Below are positions 25,880 through 39,013 of a stretch of 64,000 bases of DNA, one piece after another. The translations under genes were made by a program, and so were the position numbers. The notes below the pieces were generated by a model that worked only from the letters and a program-made list of their open reading frames with translations, had not been told where the DNA came from and ran no database searches. Each line of letters opens with the position of its first letter. The first letter of the stretch is position 1. The stretch comes from Enterococcus moraviensis ATCC BAA-383. GTDB taxonomy: Bacteria > Bacillota > Bacilli > Lactobacillales > Enterococcaceae. The stretch covers positions 372,001-436,000 of the forward strand of contig NZ_ASWB01000002.1 of assembly GCF_000407445.1 (NCBI RefSeq), in the 5' to 3' direction.

Positions 25880-26130
25880 ATATTATTAACCTACTACATG
25901 GATTGTAAGATTACTTAAAAAGACAAAAAATAACCGTCTTATCTTTAGTAGGATAACGGTTATTTTTTAGTAACAGATATTTTCTATATATTCTTTTTAC
26001 GTTTGTAATAATGATAGTCAAACGTTTTACATACTCTCTAAATAGAGGGTTCTTTTTTTCTGTTTTTTCTCGATCATAACCCTGTGTGGATTCCCTCAAA
26101 AAAGAAATACGTCTCTTTTGGTATACAATG
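25880..26130 (-). pseudogene. Decayed copy of the type I toxin and tyrosine recombinase module
   Basis: This stretch is a shrunken copy of 33300-34170. The end of a toxin frame (about 25900-25935) and the hairpin ATAACCG/CGGTTAT (25927-25966) are followed by four separate blocks that match the recombinase gene at 33544-34098: the conserved-His region, CATACTCTCTAAATAGAGGG, AAGAAATACGTCTCTTTTGG, and the promoter TTTTAGCATAATAAC (beyond 26140). At least three internal deletions separate them, so neither gene works. The 62-residue minus frame here is an accidental fusion of these blocks. The remaining 25711-25880 shows nothing I recognise. Confidence 0.75.
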
Positions 26131-26181
26131 CACTATTATAGTTATATTTTAGCATAATAACATATTTGGAGCTATTAGAAA

Positions 26182-26251
26182 TAAAAATCCTGTCACATTA
26201 AAAGATAAATTACGCAGTTTTTAAAGGTTATTTTGCACCACTAAAACAAAC
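26182..26251. mobile_element. Outer left end of the Tn552-like composite with flanking direct repeat
   Basis: TGTCACATTAAAAGATAAAT begins at 26191 and matches 21 of the first 26 bases of the inverted right end at 39108. Similar GCA-containing subrepeats follow for about 50 bp. TAAAAATCC (26182-26190) lies just outside and is repeated exactly after the right end (39109-39117), as a target duplication would be. Nine bases is longer than usual for this family, so a base or more may match by chance. Confidence 0.75.
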
Positions 26252-33116: not shown

Positions 33117-33247
33117 CAAGATAAAAAATAATTTATGAAGGCGTGTATTATGCTATAATTTAATAGTAGAGAAGTTGAGGCGGTGGCTATCTTTGAGGAG
33201 GTGGTGCATATGATTGTATGTACTAAATCTACGAAAGGAGAAGCCTT

Positions 33248-33352
33248 TTGTCAGCATTGGAAACAATACAACTGATTATAAGCTTTGGTATGTTTACTAT
33301 TGCTTTGATCAAGTTGGTTGTAGACTTGCTTAAAAAAGACAAAAAAAAATAA
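33248..33352 (+). CDS. Type I toxin, holin-like/TxpA-like small membrane peptide
   Basis: A 34-residue peptide starting at TTG with AAAGGAG seven bases upstream: MSALETIQLIISFGMFTI, one hydrophobic helix, and a lysine-rich tail DLLKKDKKK. This is the signature of the putative holin-like toxins that are paired with an antisense RNA in Gram-positive bacteria. The stop lies in a bidirectional terminator hairpin shared with a convergent antisense transcript, the normal design. A 21-codon frame (ATG 33210, after GAGGAGG) overlaps the toxin start and may couple translation. Such peptides depolarise the membrane when over-produced. Confidence 0.8.
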   Translation: MSALETIQLIISFGMFTIALIKLVVDLLKKDKKK

Positions 33353-33543: not shown

Positions 33544-34098
33544 TTAGAAGCCTAGACGGAAATTTTTAAGAGAATCGCTTATTTCGTCTTGTGTGATCCC
33601 AATGTATCGCTTAGTGATTTGTTGATTTGAGTGACCGAATATTTCCATTAAAAAGACAATATCTTTTGTACGTTTGTAATAGTGATAGCCAAATGTTTTA
33701 CGAAGAGTGTGTGTTCCGATGTCATTTCTATCTAAGCCAGCTGCAACCTTTTGAAAAATTTTGTAAACAGCTTTTGGCTGAAGGTGATCAGATCCTTTTC
33801 GACTAGGAAATAACCAATCATTATCGTCCATGTCTTTTATATAGTCTTCAATCTGACTTTGCATACTCTCTAAATAGAGGGTTCTTTTTTTTCCCGTTTT
33901 TTTCTCAATAATTTGGGGAGTACTGGAATATTTAATGTCACTTACTTTACGACAAACAATATCTGACATTCGCAATCCTGTGTTGATTCCGAACAAAAAA
34001 AGAAATACGTCTCTTTTGGCATATCGATGCCGACGTAGGAAAAAAAGAAAGTCATTAATTTCGTCATTTGATCGTAATGGCTGCACGTTGTAACTCAT
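33544..34098 (-). CDS. Short tyrosine recombinase
   Basis: A 184-residue recombinase consisting mainly of a catalytic domain. The catalytic residues can be followed: Arg43 in TGLRMSDI, Lys near residue 70, His130 and Arg133 in THTLRKTFGYH, His156 in FGHSNQQ and the nucleophile Tyr165 in KRYIG. The usual N-terminal core-binding domain is missing, as in small plasmid- or transposon-borne XerC-like resolvases. It is adjacent to a transposon end (34181), and a decayed copy lies beside the other left end at 26191. Confidence 0.9.
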   Translation of the reverse strand: MSYNVQPLRSNDEINDFLFFLRRHRYAKRDVFLFLFGINTGLRMSDIVCRKVSDIKYSSTPQIIEKKTGKKRTLYLESMQSQIEDYIKDMDDNDWLFPSRKGSDHLQPKAVYKIFQKVAAGLDRNDIGTHTLRKTFGYHYYKRTKDIVFLMEIFGHSNQQITKRYIGITQDEISDSLKNFRLGF

Positions 34099-34180: not shown

Positions 34181-34230
34181 TGTTACTTTTAGAGGTAAAT
34201 TGCACATATTTTAATCGATTTTTTTCTCTA
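34181..34230. mobile_element. Inner left-type transposon end
   Basis: TGTTACTTTTAGAGGTAAAT at 34181-34200, continuing TTGCACA, matches 22 of 26 bases of the inverted right end (39108 inward). It defines, with the right end, a 4.9-kb unit containing the structured RNA region, reverse transcriptase, resolvase, transposase and ATPase. The flank AAACCT is not repeated after the right end. Confidence 0.72.
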
Positions 34231-34239
34231 TATTTAGTT

Positions 34240-34612
34240 AGAAATAATTTCTAATTTATGTTAGAATATATGTGCCTGTCATGTAATAGGTGACAGAATA
34301 TAGTGTTTCAGACTTGCAAGCACGAACTGCTTGAAATGTTCAGGTAAGTGTAGCTTTGAGTTAATATCAAGAATTATTAATACTTCTTGAATTAACGTGA
34401 TTGATAAGTTGAGAACAAGTGATACAGATATGTTCATTTGAATTTCTCCTTTCATGAACCAGTCAATAATACTATAACAGATTAGTTGAATCTGTCGATT
34501 TGCTGCTTATAAAAAATGGCCGATAAAGCAGTCCATACGGCTCTGCGCAGGAAGGAATATTTGTCAGAAATCAAGTCTGCCGTTCCTTCCAGCTCCAAAA
34601 ATGAGGTGTAGA
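34240..34612 (+). ncRNA. Structured non-coding RNA region upstream of the reverse transcriptase
   Basis: About 370 bp between the inner transposon end and the reverse transcriptase gene are dense in hairpins: CTGTCA/TGACAG (34276-34296), CAAGCA/TGCTTG with loop CGAAC (34317-34333), GTTAAT..CAAGAA / TTCTTG.ATTAAC (34360-34396), CAGATT/AATCTG (34478-34494), CTGCTTAT/ATAAAGCAG (34503-34531) and GGAAGGAA/TTCCTTCC (34550-34590). A -10-like TAGAAT at 34262-34267 could start the transcript. No plus-strand frame exceeds about 28 codons. This matches the upstream template/scaffold RNA of DRT2- or DRT9-type defence systems. Confidence 0.65.
34279..34437 (-). CDS. Candidate small reading frame antisense to the RT-associated RNA
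   Basis: On the minus strand ATG 34437 follows AAAGGAG with an 8-bp gap and opens 52 codons: MNISVSLVLNLSITL at the start, then QEVLIILDINSKLHLPEH and an end YILSPIT. An in-frame ATG at 34455 also exists, and the frame is stop-free from 34506 to 34279 (75 codons), unlike all plus-strand frames here. The peptide would be hydrophobic and helical. It may be a small gene, or the coding potential may belong to DNA made by the reverse transcriptase from this RNA. No family is recognised. Confidence 0.35.
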   Translation of the reverse strand: MNISVSLVLNLSITLIQEVLIILDINSKLHLPEHFKQFVLASLKHYILSPIT

Positions 34613-34613
34613 T

Positions 34614-35969
34614 ATGTTAAGTTCTAATAAATATCAAACAAAAACATATTTGCATTTTGATCATAGAGTGAAGATTGAAAATGCAGAAAACTATGTTACT
34701 AATCCTAAAAAGATTGCTGGACATAGTTTTTTGCCTTTTATTCATTATGTAGATTCTTTTGATAAATATACTGGTAAAAACGACTTAGAAAGAAATAATC
34801 GACCGATCAAAGAAAAAACTCGGAAGATAATGTATGCGGGACACTGGGATAATTTTATTTATAAGTACTATGCTGATGAACTATTAAATCCAAAATACAA
34901 TGAATTTTGCTTAAATAGGAGTATTGATGATTGTGTAACAGCCTATAGAAATAACAAAAAAGGAAAATCTAATATTGATTTTGCAGCAGAGGTAATAAAT
35001 AGTATCGTAAAATATGAAGAAGCATTTATTTTAGTTGGTGATTTTACCCATTTTTTTGATAGCTTACAGCATTCATTATTAAAGCAGAGATTGGCAACCG
35101 TATTGGATGTAAAAATATTGAGTAAAGATTGGTTCAATGTATTTAATTCTGTAACTAAATATGGTTATTATGAAAAAAATTTACTTGTTGATCTATTCGG
35201 AACGGATAAACAAATAAAGAAATCAGGAAGAAAAAGCTACTTTAATCAATTGAGTGATTTCAGAAAATTTCAAAAAGTGTACACGACTAAAACAAATCCT
35301 GATTTAATTAAAGGAATACCTCAGGGAACAGCAATAAGTGCTGTGTTAGCAAATATTTATACAATTGATTTTGACTTAGCGTTACAAAAAACAGCGAACA
35401 AGTACTTAGGAATTTACAGAAGATATTCTGACGATTTCATTTTGATTATTCCGAAACAGAGTTTTAAAAAGGAAGAATTCAAATCAATTGAACAGCAAGT
35501 TAGGACCTTGGCTGAAGATAATAAAATTAATCTTCATGAGAGTAAGACCGAAATGTACTTCTATGCAGACAACAAAATCAAACTATTAGAAAACAATAAA
35601 AAAAGTAGTTTAGACTATTTAGGATTTACCTTCGATGGAAAAACTGTACAAATGCGCGGGAAAAGTACCTACAAATTTTATCGGAATGCAAAAAAGCTGA
35701 TTAATAAGGCTCATAGGACAAAAAGAAAAAAAGGATTAGATAAGATTCCTTATCGAAAAAAAATATACGAACTTTACACAGATATTGGCGATAAAAAAGG
35801 GAAACATAGTAATTTTATTTCATATTCTAAACAGGCACAAATCAAATTTGATAGTATATCTCCAAACACTAATAATATAATGATGAATCAAATAAAAAAT
35901 CGAAAAAAATATGTAGAAAAACGTTTAGGCTTCAAAATTCATACGAACATAAGAACTAGAGATATTTAA
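34614..35969 (+). CDS. Defence-associated reverse transcriptase (DRT2-like)
   Basis: A 451-residue stand-alone reverse transcriptase. Catalytic aspartates are Asp143 in [10 protein letters not shown] and the pair in [10 protein letters not shown] (273-274). [16 protein letters not shown] (234-249) is motif 4 and [10 protein letters not shown] motif 7. No maturase, endonuclease or CRISPR domain is fused, and no retron VTG motif is seen. The N-terminus ([33 protein letters not shown]) fits my memory of Drt2-family proteins, and a structured RNA region lies upstream as in DRT2. The subtype is an inference. It is convergent with the transposon resolvase, overlapping it by four bases. Confidence 0.82.
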
Positions 35970-36571
35970 TTCTCCAGTTCTTTTTTTATTCTATAGACGG
36001 TTTGTCTGGTGATTCCCAACTCTTTAGATATTTCTGAAATAGAAATGCCCATTACTAGTTTTTCGACAATTTGATGATAAATTGCCCTTTTTTGAAGATC
36101 TCTTGCTGTTTCTGAATATAATTTCGGACGCCCTTTATAAATTCCTCGCTCTTTTGCAATCTTAATTCCTTGGGCTTGTCGTCTTTTAGATTCCGTTCGT
36201 TCTTGCTCTGCAATCATAGCTAAAATCTGAATGATTAAATCTTTAATAAAGCGGTCGAGTAATGGATTACCAATTGCTTCAGCCATAATAGGAAGACTAG
36301 TTATTATCAATTGAACATTTTTGTTTTTCAGTTGATTGACGGTCAGAATAATTTCATCGTAATTTCTACCTAGTCGATCGATTGCCTCTACCATAAAAAT
36401 ATCAGACTCTCTCTCAAAATCCAATGCTTCTTTAAAAATTGGACGTTGCTCAACAGTCGCTCCAGATTTTTTCTCTATAAATATTTTTTCTGCACCTAAT
36501 TTTTCAAATTCTTGAATTTGTCTTTCCAAACTTTGATCGATCGATGAAACTCTTGCATATGCAACCTTCAA
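35966..36571 (-). CDS. Serine recombinase (resolvase/invertase) of the transposon
   Basis: A 201-residue small serine recombinase: [18 protein letters not shown] with the nucleophile serine at position 9 or 10, [33 protein letters not shown], a long E-helix and a C-terminal HTH ([22 protein letters not shown]). The likely start is TTG 36571 with AGAGGAG upstream; an in-frame ATG at 36601 has none. It resembles BinL/Tn552-type resolvases and should resolve cointegrates at the site between it and the transposase. Confidence 0.9.
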
Positions 36572-36589
36572 AAAAACTCCTCTTTTCTT

Positions 36590-36720
36590 GCTATTTATCA
36601 CACACCCTAATCATACAATTAGAAAACAGTAAAATCAACTACCCATACTTGTATGATTATCGTGTACCCTAATTAGACATTTTTTTCTACCTATGAAAAA
36701 ATGATCTTAAGAGAGGAGGT
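36590..36720. promoter_or_regulatory. Putative res site and divergent promoters
   Basis: The 155 bp between the resolvase and the transposase hold related, partly inverted motifs: CACACCCTAATCATACAATTAG (36601-36622), CATACTTGTATGATTATCG (36645-36663) and GTGTACCCTAATTAGACA (36662-36679). Three such subsites are what a resolvase binds, and both promoters must lie here too. Confidence 0.6.
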
Positions 36721-36726
36721 GAGAAC

Positions 36727-38166
36727 ATGGAACAGAAAAAATACTTGATTTATTATTCTGAAGACAAACGATTTGCAGCAATGAAAAAATATAAAATTAT
36801 AGAACCCTACTTGTCGAAGCAATGTTCGTTAAGTGAAGTTGCAACTAATTCCAACTATTGCATTCGAACGTTAAGGACCTGGATATCTAATTATAAGAAA
36901 AATGGATTAGTCGGACTTATTACAAAAGAGCGTTGTGATAAAGGGAAAATAGAAATATCTAACGAAGTTGAACAAATGATTAAAAAATATACTCTAATGA
37001 ATAAAAATATATCAATTGCTTCAATACAAAGAAAGATAGCTGTGTGGTGTAATGAAAATCAAATTACAGAACCGTCATATTATCAAGTTAGAAAAATTAT
37101 TGCTAATATTCCCAAAAACTTAACAGTGTTAGCTCAGGAGGGAGCTAAAAAATATTCTAATAAATTCGATTTGATATATTTGAGGGAAGCAGATTATCCA
37201 AATCAGATCTGGCAGGCTGATCATACGTTACTTGACATAAATATATTAAATTCAAAAGGGAGTTCAGTGCGGCCGTGGTTAACTATTATTTTAGACGATT
37301 ACAGTAGAGCTGTGGTTGGCTATTATATAGATTTTGAAGCACCTAACTCTTTAAAAACAGCTTTGACTTTGAGGCAAGCGATTTGGAAGAAAAAAAATCC
37401 TAACTGGCCTGTTTGTGGTATACCTGAAACATTTTATACGGATCATGGTAGTGATTTCACTTCTATACATTTAGAGCAAGTGGCTCTAGATTTGAAAATG
37501 TCACTACTTTTTTCTAAGGTAGGGGTGCCACGTGGTAGAGGTAAAATTGAACGTTTTTTTAATACAGTCAATACTATGTTTCTAGAATCATTACCAGGAT
37601 ATACAAAAAATAATAGTACAAAAAAATTGCTAACTGAAGAAGAACTTTTGATAGCATTTAATGATTGGTTACTGAATACTTATCACTATAGAATTCATGG
37701 AACAACTAAACAAAGGCCAATTGACATGTGGAATAGATCGGATTTTTTACCAAATATGCCAGATTCTTTGGAAAATCTCGACTTATTATTATTAGAAGTA
37801 AAAAAAGAACGTGTTGTACATTCTGACGGAATTCATTTATTTGGCTTGAAGTATATTCAACCCAATTTATCAGCATTTGTCGGGGAATCTGTAGAAATAA
37901 GGTATGATCCTAGAGACATTAGTGATATCCGTGTATTTTATAATAGAGAATTTTTGTGTACAGCTGTCTCGACAACATTAGAAAACTATTCAATCAGCTT
38001 AAATGATATAAGAAAAGAAAGGAATAGCGTGCGCCGAAACCTCTCTAATAATCTTCAAGTAACGACAGAAACAGTGATAGAGCATATGCAAGAGAATAGA
38101 CGGGTTGAAACAAATAGTCAGAGTAAACATAAAAAATCAACTCTAAGGAGCTATAAAAATGACTAG
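36727..38166 (+). CDS. DDE-type transposase, Tn552 p480/TniA family
   Basis: A 479-residue transposase. An N-terminal HTH (LSEVATNSNYCIRTLRTWI) is followed by an integrase core with the DDE residues Asp165 (IWQADHTLLD), Asp239 (FYTDHGSDF) and Glu275 (GRGKIERFFN), and a C-terminal Mu-transposase-type beta barrel (about residues 370-440). It begins at ATG 36727 after AGAGGAGG. It overlaps the ATPase gene by 8 bp. Such proteins need the partner ATPase for target choice, and in this family target sites are often resolution sites of other elements. Confidence 0.92.
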   Translation: MEQKKYLIYYSEDKRFAAMKKYKIIEPYLSKQCSLSEVATNSNYCIRTLRTWISNYKKNGLVGLITKERCDKGKIEISNEVEQMIKKYTLMNKNISIASIQRKIAVWCNENQITEPSYYQVRKIIANIPKNLTVLAQEGAKKYSNKFDLIYLREADYPNQIWQADHTLLDINILNSKGSSVRPWLTIILDDYSRAVVGYYIDFEAPNSLKTALTLRQAIWKKKNPNWPVCGIPETFYTDHGSDFTSIHLEQVALDLKMSLLFSKVGVPRGRGKIERFFNTVNTMFLESLPGYTKNNSTKKLLTEEELLIAFNDWLLNTYHYRIHGTTKQRPIDMWNRSDFLPNMPDSLENLDLLLLEVKKERVVHSDGIHLFGLKYIQPNLSAFVGESVEIRYDPRDISDIRVFYNREFLCTAVSTTLENYSISLNDIRKERNSVRRNLSNNLQVTTETVIEHMQENRRVETNSQSKHKKSTLRSYKND

Positions 38167-39013
38167 TACTTTTCAGTTTATTGAAACAAAGGAATATCAT
38201 AAATTTGTTGAATTTTGCGATTCGTGCGCTAAGTACAAATACATTGGTGTTTGTCATGGTCTACCAGGAGTTGGTAAAACAGTAGCTGCTAAAAATTACA
38301 GTAAATGGGAGACAATAAGTCCCACTGTTACAAAAGTACGATCATTAAATCAACGGAAAAATGATAAAATACCTATAGAAATAGCACAGGCGACTACAAT
38401 ATTTACTACAGCACCGCCTGTAAAATCTGCAAATTTATATAATGAACTTAGAAATTTAGCTATAAACCTTAGGTATTCTAAAAAATCTTTAGCTATCCAG
38501 GAAAATAAAATATCTGAAGAAGAAGCTCAAGAAATGTCTAAACATCTAATATATGCAGAGGATAATGAACCCTACAAATCAGTTGAATTAGTAATTATTG
38601 ATGAAGTAGACAGATTAAAATTACAAACTCTTGAAATTTTAAGAGACATATATGACCAAAATAATATTGGCATGGTTTTAATTGGTATGAACGGGCTAGA
38701 AAAAAAGCTATCTAGATACCCTCAACTTTATTCACGTATCGGTTTTTCACATGAATTTAAAAAAATAGCTAAAACTGAACTTCAGCATATACTGGAATAT
38801 AAGTGGCAGGAGGTTGGTCTTACAATATCTTATGAGGATTTTGAAGATTATGAAGCAATTAATAGTATTCTAAAGTTGAGCAATGGGAATCTTAGATTAC
38901 TTCAACGGTTGTTCACACAAATTGATCGCGTTATGGAAATAAACAATCTTCAAAAAATTACTACTGAAGTAATTGAGGTAGCTAGAAAATTATTAATAAT
39001 TGGTACTGTTTAA
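38159..39013 (+). CDS. Transposon AAA ATPase, Tn552 p271/TniB family
   Basis: A 284-residue ATPase with Walker A GLPGVGKT (residues 34-41) and Walker B ELVIIDEVDRL, followed by a sensor region GMVLIGMNGLEKKLSRYPQLYSRIGF that is typical of TniB/MuB-like regulators. It binds target DNA and activates the DDE transposase. An inserted stretch of about 35 residues (NKISEEEAQEMSKHL) lies between the two Walker motifs. It is the last gene before the right transposon end, followed by a terminator-like hairpin at 39025-39060. Confidence 0.92.
   Translation: MTSTFQFIETKEYHKFVEFCDSCAKYKYIGVCHGLPGVGKTVAAKNYSKWETISPTVTKVRSLNQRKNDKIPIEIAQATTIFTTAPPVKSANLYNELRNLAINLRYSKKSLAIQENKISEEEAQEMSKHLIYAEDNEPYKSVELVIIDEVDRLKLQTLEILRDIYDQNNIGMVLIGMNGLEKKLSRYPQLYSRIGFSHEFKKIAKTELQHILEYKWQEVGLTISYEDFEDYEAINSILKLSNGNLRLLQRLFTQIDRVMEINNLQKITTEVIEVARKLLIIGTV

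Follow-up and report, generated by a model that had tools for sequence, protein, structure and literature searches.

A divergent DRT2 reverse transcriptase locus of Enterococcus moraviensis with a predicted 180-nt, GTT-bounded template for a stop-less antisense neo gene

A stand-alone reverse transcriptase (RT) gene preceded by a hairpin-rich non-coding RNA (ncRNA) raises the question of which part of the RNA the enzyme would copy, and on which strand the product would be read. Passages of PMC12039810 (Wilkinson et al.) and of the preprint PMC11100668 describe how DRT2 enzymes copy an ncRNA template in rolling-circle fashion by jumping between two ACA trinucleotides, giving repeats whose length is divisible by three, a promoter that arises across the junction (with a 17-bp spacing in PMC12039810) and a stop-less open reading frame, neo, on the strand antisense to the ncRNA. 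In the passages concerned, the preprint also reports that Neo is harder to annotate in DRT2 clades of greater divergence, for which it suggests that other mechanisms may operate. We addressed this question for a 64,000-nt stretch of Enterococcus moraviensis ATCC BAA-383 (hereafter the window, by which we mean the whole stretch that was analysed), which carries the following RT gene:

34614-35969, plus strand: DRT2 (UG2) RT of 451 aa, single domain, with GIPQG and YRRYSDDF (YSDD) motifs
34603-34608, plus strand: RT ribosome site GAGGTG, read by eye

The first-pass annotation, made from the letters alone, had described an enterococcal DRT2 relative with YSDD and GIPQG motifs and no fused domains. 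The open reading frame and the Pfam search bear out the motifs and the single domain, with RVT_1 as the sole match above cut-off. Profile comparison, which had been named beforehand as a check, gave the same answer: against the PADLOC profiles the RT matches Drt2 (PDLC03757) at E=2.8e-136, far ahead of the best non-Drt2 family, RT_UG17 (5e-21), and of Drt9 (9e-19), and in a PDB search the KpnDRT2 chains are the top solved structures (E about 5e-53). By these searches the RT belongs to Drt2/UG2 and not to the group II introns, retrons or UG28. The equivalog model NF041746 (Drt2) is also its top NCBIfam match, at 342.3 bits and thus under the curated cut-off of 390, a limit that is set by the database and does not define the family biologically. 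In a FastTree phylogeny of 95 RTs the window sits in supported sets of 16, 20 and 22 rows together with RTs from Listeria, Trichococcus, Oceanobacillus, Desemzia, Enterococcus sp. BWR-S5 and others, and its identity to any of the 95 rows is 62% at most. The window RT is therefore a divergent Drt2, and the locus is a real DRT2 locus of a kind whose mechanism is already known. Single-protein scans of viral and genome contig collections found no relatives.

Upstream of the RT, the following elements were placed by folding and by comparison with related loci:

34259-34267, plus strand: -10-like box, TGTTAGAAT, placed by alignment
about 34274-34604, plus strand: predicted ncRNA, its ends set from the aligned -10-like box and the relatives
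34276-34296, plus strand: 5′ handle hairpin
34299-34476, plus strand: template-closing hairpin, with arms 34299-34307 (TATAGTGTT) and 34468-34476 (AATACTATA)
34502-34508 with 34526-34532, plus strand: buttress hairpin
34518-34522 (GGCCG) with 34538-34542 (CGGCT), plus strand: pseudoknot
34552-34588, plus strand: tower hairpin

The 354 nt before the RT reach -89.4 kcal/mol against a shuffle mean of -75.4 (z -2.67), which beats 99 of 100 dinucleotide shuffles, and their predicted fold has several hairpins. To compare homologues, we used a MAFFT alignment of 19 loci, made up of the clade loci L053-L064, L067, L119, L030, L032 and L036 together with the window and L068, with L065 and L066 left out. 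All 6 pairs of the handle are changed on both sides across the 19 sequences (92.8% of cells paired). For the buttress and pseudoknot, 8 of 11 pairs covary in 12 sequences (79.5% of cells paired; covariation 0.410 versus 0.236 shuffled), and for the tower 5 of 9 in 11 sequences (98% paired), where these two tests were run on sub-alignments (12 and 11 of the 19 loci) picked after candidate pairs had been seen. None of 500 shuffles reached the covariation score of the handle, and the same holds for the buttress/pseudoknot and for the tower; the score drops for every helix once the partners are slid. By two weaker measures, shuffles match the number of pairs changed on both sides in 16, 2 and 1 of 500 (handle, buttress/pseudoknot and tower, respectively) and the number of further pair types in 159, 9 and 201 of 500, the latter showing no excess for the handle and the tower. 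RNAalifold on the whole 19-locus alignment recovered the handle as its sole helix. Of 21 loci given to a scripted pseudoknot search, 9 showed this layout with offsets that hardly vary and 4 yielded no hit, the single-locus scores in those 9 being modestly above shuffles (0 to 5 of 30 at least as good), and the template-closing hairpin lies at a near-identical place in 10 of the 19 loci. Both the fold and the covariation of homologous upstream regions, the latter another check named in advance, are in accordance with the earlier description of a structured, hairpin-rich RNA.

The published ACA rule is inapplicable in the window. ACA pairs at least 60 nt apart within 34240-34613 are separated by 62, 122, 131 and 184 nt, none of which is divisible by three, and this places the window outside the ACA subgroup of KpnDRT2 type. 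AAC and CAGA, which lie next to the template hairpin, were likewise rejected as jump sites, as by eye they leave no promoter spacing. The repeat was first spotted by comparing relatives, as a GTT that occurs in the left arm of the template hairpin and again just past its right arm:

34305-34307, plus strand: GTT-1, predicted end of each copying round, the counterpart of ACA-1, from sequence comparison
34305-34484, plus strand: predicted template, copied repeatedly, 180 nt or 60 codons
34485-34487, plus strand: GTT-2, predicted re-annealing site for the next round, the counterpart of ACA-2, from sequence comparison

The unit between these triplets has what a DRT2 template calls for, namely a flanking direct repeat, a length of 180 nt, which is a multiple of three, and an antisense frame that stays free of stops across the junction, with 60 codons per repeat, a ribosome site and an ATG. 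When the 180-nt unit was shuffled and closed into a repeat, 63 of 2000 shuffles had at least one antisense frame without stops; the window by itself is therefore no more than suggestive, and the decision falls to the relatives.

The first GTT comparison ran on 12 loci, among which the remnant L004 gave nothing. In all 11 loci with intact RNA, window included, the unit measures 177-192 nt (162 in L036) and has one antisense frame without stops, and several have additional open GTT pairs. The spacing between the rebuilt -35 and -10 boxes in those 11 loci is 17 bp (18 in L034 and 16 in L036), and the rebuilt promoter is weak in L036 (8/12), in the window (9/12) and in L003 (-35 TAGACA). As a side observation, L004 (G017:C47:16552-16914, from a genome of the same genus) is a remnant of a close relative without the RNA 3′ scaffold, in which the RNA 5′ part with the handle and most of the template are fused directly to RT codons about 9-51.

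We then read the columns of the window's GTT pair across the alignment. In 17 of 19 loci the unit so defined has a length divisible by three and lacks stops in the same frame, a result that is partly by construction since the rule was derived from 11 of the 19, and the rebuilt promoter scores at least 9.5/12 in 16 of 19, those below being the window (9.0), L036 and L119. The same three letters stand at both columns in 15 of 19 loci at shift 0, whereas none of the 24 other shifts tried (-12 to +12) gives such a match in more than 1 of 19. Shifts of -12, -9, -6, -3 and +3 likewise leave 17 of 19 loci divisible and stop-free, and shifts of -1 and +1 give an equally good promoter score, so that only the three-letter repeat singles out shift 0 and it is the repeat that fixes the junction. 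Template lengths in the 17 fitting loci are 165-192 nt and divisible by three throughout, whereas those of the segments on either side fall into all residue classes modulo three (9/6/4 and 8/6/5); a count of 19 of 19 divisible lengths would include L060 and L119, whose units come from a search requiring divisibility. All 17 fitting loci are stop-free against 0.62 expected from shuffles, and on the sense strand 0 of 17 are, in a set of loci that are related rather than independent and that leaves out L060 and L119 (the 2 of 19 that do not fit), L065 and L066. Among nine clade or near-clade loci that were new after the rule, six (L057, L058, L061, L062, L064 and L068) are divisible, stop-free and have a promoter of at least 9.5; five of these share GTT, and L064 shares the adjacent TCAAGT. 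L060 fits only with AAAT and L119 only at another column, and L065 and L066 (Streptococcus) do not fit, the antisense pattern being absent from them. The two genome collections from which loci were drawn overlap, for example in L003/L059 and L028/L054.

These alignments bear on whether a rolling-circle DRT2 in the window might use other template boundaries, which we regard as unlikely. A blind search of the window scores a 183-nt solution (TAATA) equal to the 180-nt one, ACAGA at 34293 and 34477 is a 5-nt repeat, and a second GTT pair in the window, 147 nt apart, is also stop-free. Against such boundaries, the ACAGA spacing of 184 nt is not a multiple of three, on which ground that jump was rejected, the aligned columns back the 180-nt GTT pair, and neither TAATA nor 183 nt is the top blind solution in any other clade locus.

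Read antisense, the GTT-bounded unit has the following predicted elements of a neo gene:

34314-34319, minus strand: -35-like TTGCAA, 17 bp from the -10-like box only once two repeats join
34471-34476, minus strand: -10-like TATAGT, giving TTGCAA-17-TATAGT across the junction
34446-34452, minus strand: candidate neo ribosome-binding site AAAGGAG, 8 nt before the ATG at 34437-34435
34305-34437, minus strand: linear start of the candidate neo frame, running from the ATG at 34437-34435 toward GTT-1 and on into the next repeat after the jump

The AAAGGAG, ATG and 75 stop-free minus-strand codons of the first-pass annotation are all present: the site is at 34452-34446, and the open frame begins at 34506 and extends to 34282, which makes exactly 75 codons. 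The first ATG given by the ORF finder (34455) precedes the AAAGGAG, and the ATG properly placed behind that site is the one at 34437-34435. The annotation had left it open which strand the published Neo reads, and the passages of both DRT2 papers that describe it place it antisense to the ncRNA, which favours the open frame seen here. Its suggestion that this frame is the coding part of the template held for the antisense strand and for the absence of stops but not for the extent, since the coding unit is most likely the 180-nt circular unit bounded by the GTT repeats rather than the 75-codon linear frame.

The annotation had also allowed for an ordinary small gene, here one that crosses the ncRNA region from its own linear promoter, and in the window such a gene is easily drawn: a linear antisense TCGACA-16-TATAGT is as good as the rebuilt promoter, the AAAGGAG follows, and a 58-codon ATG frame (34279-34455) stops at a TGA beyond GTT-1. 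The relatives make this reading very improbable. Even at the best of five spacings, the linear -35 of the other 18 loci scores no more than 4/6, the mean -35 match is 5.3/6 in the concatemer versus 2.9/6 in the linear genome, and the linear frame runs on for 2 to 170 nt past GTT-1, so that where it ends varies from locus to locus. In the 17 fitting loci the codons ahead of the ATG also lack stops, a feature that an ordinary gene could do without, and the codon-position signal of such a gene is absent: changes in the neo frame number 126, 93 and 108 of 420 at positions 1, 2 and 3 in seven pairs, with no third-position excess.

Without that excess, constraint on the exact Neo protein is weak. 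Single-repeat Neo translations are 54-68 residues long and 45-58% hydrophobic by a residue set chosen in this analysis, and those of the close relatives have the pattern ICYNxI...M...LLDSxKL in common. For the published systems, passages of PMC12039810 trace the majority of conserved Neo residues to the promoter and the ACA elements and mention a hydrophobic bias. Weak amino-acid conservation is also what might be expected if the RT and RNA were functional and the clade's cDNA acted as DNA, with the open frame as a by-product. DRT9 (UG28) and DRT10 (UG17), the second-tier profile matches of the window RT, likewise pair a class 2 UG RT with an ncRNA; unlike the predicted product here, theirs is poly-dA or tandem-repeat DNA, these related class 2 RTs working via DNA products with no coding product reported in the relevant passages of PMC12483538 and PMC12632851. 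We give this possibility hardly any weight for the window's clade, where divisibility by three, the absence of stops and the promoter geometry are maintained and most blind solutions have a ribosome site before a start.

The blind solutions come from a motif-free search of 94 of 96 upstream regions (L118, of 251 nt, and L127, which contains N, were dropped), in which each region was compared with 20 shuffles of itself and with its sense strand. Among the 94, 81 score above their own sense strand and 11 below. The non-redundant set has 86 loci: 68 of them do better than every one of their 20 shuffles, 74 score above and 10 below the sense strand, and 4 have no candidate. The rebuilt promoter reaches at least 11/12 in 52 of the 86 and 12/12 in 25, and the loci with a perfect promoter have 105-225 nt per repeat. 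As a positive control, two E. coli DRT2s (L143 and L144), whose RTs are 56-57% identical to KpnDRT2 over 197 residues, gave ACA and 117 nt as the top solution, the commonest repeat length in passages of PMC12039810, with TTGACA-17-TATAAT in L144 and TGGACA-17-TATAAT in L143. Within the clade, L059 fails to beat its shuffles (9/20), the search prefers a 96-nt solution in L036, and unit lengths overall are 162-204 nt.

In a promoter-only test we used the 32 of 86 loci with a unique top promoter pair and let the promoter, at spacing 17, set the offset. That offset is divisible by three in 22 of 32 loci (binomial P 4.5e-5, a nominal value as the loci are related) and stop-free in 20, and 19 have a direct repeat of at least 3 nt there. 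Such a repeat occurs in 3 to 12 of 32 or 33 loci at spacings 14-16 and 18-20, and spacings 14 and 20, being three off, retain the divisibility counts.

Related loci share like repeats in the blind search: GATTG with 129 nt in L088, L093 and L099; ATTG with 126 nt in L082, L084 and L100; GTGA(A) with 150-162 nt in Bacillus-like hosts (L070, L077-L081 and L094); ATGA with 138-141 nt in two Paenibacillus; and GTAT with 132-135 nt in two phage records. There are also close kin with discordant or failed solutions, such as L073/L076, L092/L095 and L101/L103, and the clustering of motifs on the RT tree was judged by eye. This sharing is the ground on which we think it fairly likely that the DRT2 jump signal is any short direct repeat rightly placed, and not ACA as such. 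The repeat would be lineage-specific (GTT here; ATTG, GATTG, GTGA, ATGA, GTAT or ATA in other lineages), whereas the sigma-A promoter with its 17-bp spacing and the endless antisense gene would be retained. Hidden neo genes would then lie across Bacillota DRT2s in which they have so far escaped annotation, and one Streptococcus lineage may be sense-coded.

That lineage is represented by L065 and L066 (Streptococcus infantis and S. mitis). In the 340 nt upstream of the RT they share a hydrophobic sense-strand ORF of about 63 codons, and their sense-strand concatemer solutions coincide in position (180/204 and 186/210 nt, with promoters of 10/12 and 9.5/12). These two similar sequences may encode the effector in a strand-flipped or a conventional form.

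For the window, we consider it highly probable, judging from sequence comparison, that the locus is a divergent DRT2 abortive-infection system in which the 180-nt GTT-bounded template is copied into a stop-less antisense neo gene. We infer its steps in the cell, Neo toxicity included, as follows. One promoter would give the ncRNA and then the RT mRNA, and the RT would bind the handle, buttress/pseudoknot and tower, by analogy with the published KpnDRT2 structure. On infection the RT would copy from 34484 down to 34305, and the cDNA end AAC, templated by GTT-1, would re-anneal to GTT-2 so that copying restarts. The outcome of such jumps would be head-to-tail 180-nt repeats, a gene that is not present as such in the chromosome. 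Second-strand synthesis would make each junction set TTGCAA 17 bp before TATAGT, the repeats would be transcribed antisense to the ncRNA, and translation from AAAGGAG-N8-ATG would yield a stop-less, hydrophobic protein of 60-residue repeats, Neo, that may arrest the cell.

As far as the published passages describe it, KpnDRT2 of Klebsiella pneumoniae is like the window in its homologous single-domain RT, its ncRNA with a 5′ handle, pseudoknotted buttress and tower, and in the hairpin-closed template and antisense stop-less repeat ORF that are predicted here; its junction promoter with 17-bp spacing has a candidate counterpart in the window that scores 9/12, no better than the linear alternative. 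KpnDRT2 differs in jumping at ACA rather than GTT, in a template of 120 nt (published 111-129) versus 180 nt, and in its Neo sequence, and the window's host is Gram-positive. The window's closer kin are the DRT2s of its own supported RT clade, which supply the aligned loci that share a triplet.

The locus lies among genes of mobile elements:

33544-34098, minus strand: tyrosine recombinase, from profile matches
35966-36601, minus strand: serine resolvase, from profile matches
36727-39013: TnsB-like (Mu/TnsB-like) transposase with an AAA ATPase partner (weak TniB match), from profile matches

The resolvase, transposase and AAA genes at 35966-39013 form a set that we take to resemble the Tn552 family, and a repeat scan around the locus gave no inverted repeats assignable as transposon ends. 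Stretches of the resolvase and transposase genes recur in another genome of the genus (G015), on a different contig from its DRT2. A recombinase gene lies directly beside DRT2 in the window, in L135 (tyrosine-type) and in L144 (recombinase family), in unrelated hosts. Short degraded copies of parts of the integrase and of the region before the RNA, 76-90% identical, lie at 25992-26224 on the same contig. The Rfam family rli28 matches 33144-33323 (plus strand, 80.8 bits), which holds by eye a small hydrophobic peptide of about 34 codons from a TTG, presumably resembling a type I toxin, and stretches just upstream of this match recur 776-794 bp earlier.

A literature search that took in sections of the two DRT2 papers and passages of others found no description of a non-ACA jump motif, and the window's jump signal, repeat length and lineage are undescribed in the literature so covered. 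A lineage-specific jump signal would explain why Neo annotation is difficult in divergent clades. Together with the fixed promoter geometry, a lineage-specific repeat would provide a simple rule for predicting hidden neo genes from sequence, and the template-jump mechanism would become testable by swapping repeats. It would also make a larger set of Neo proteins available for finding how cells are arrested.
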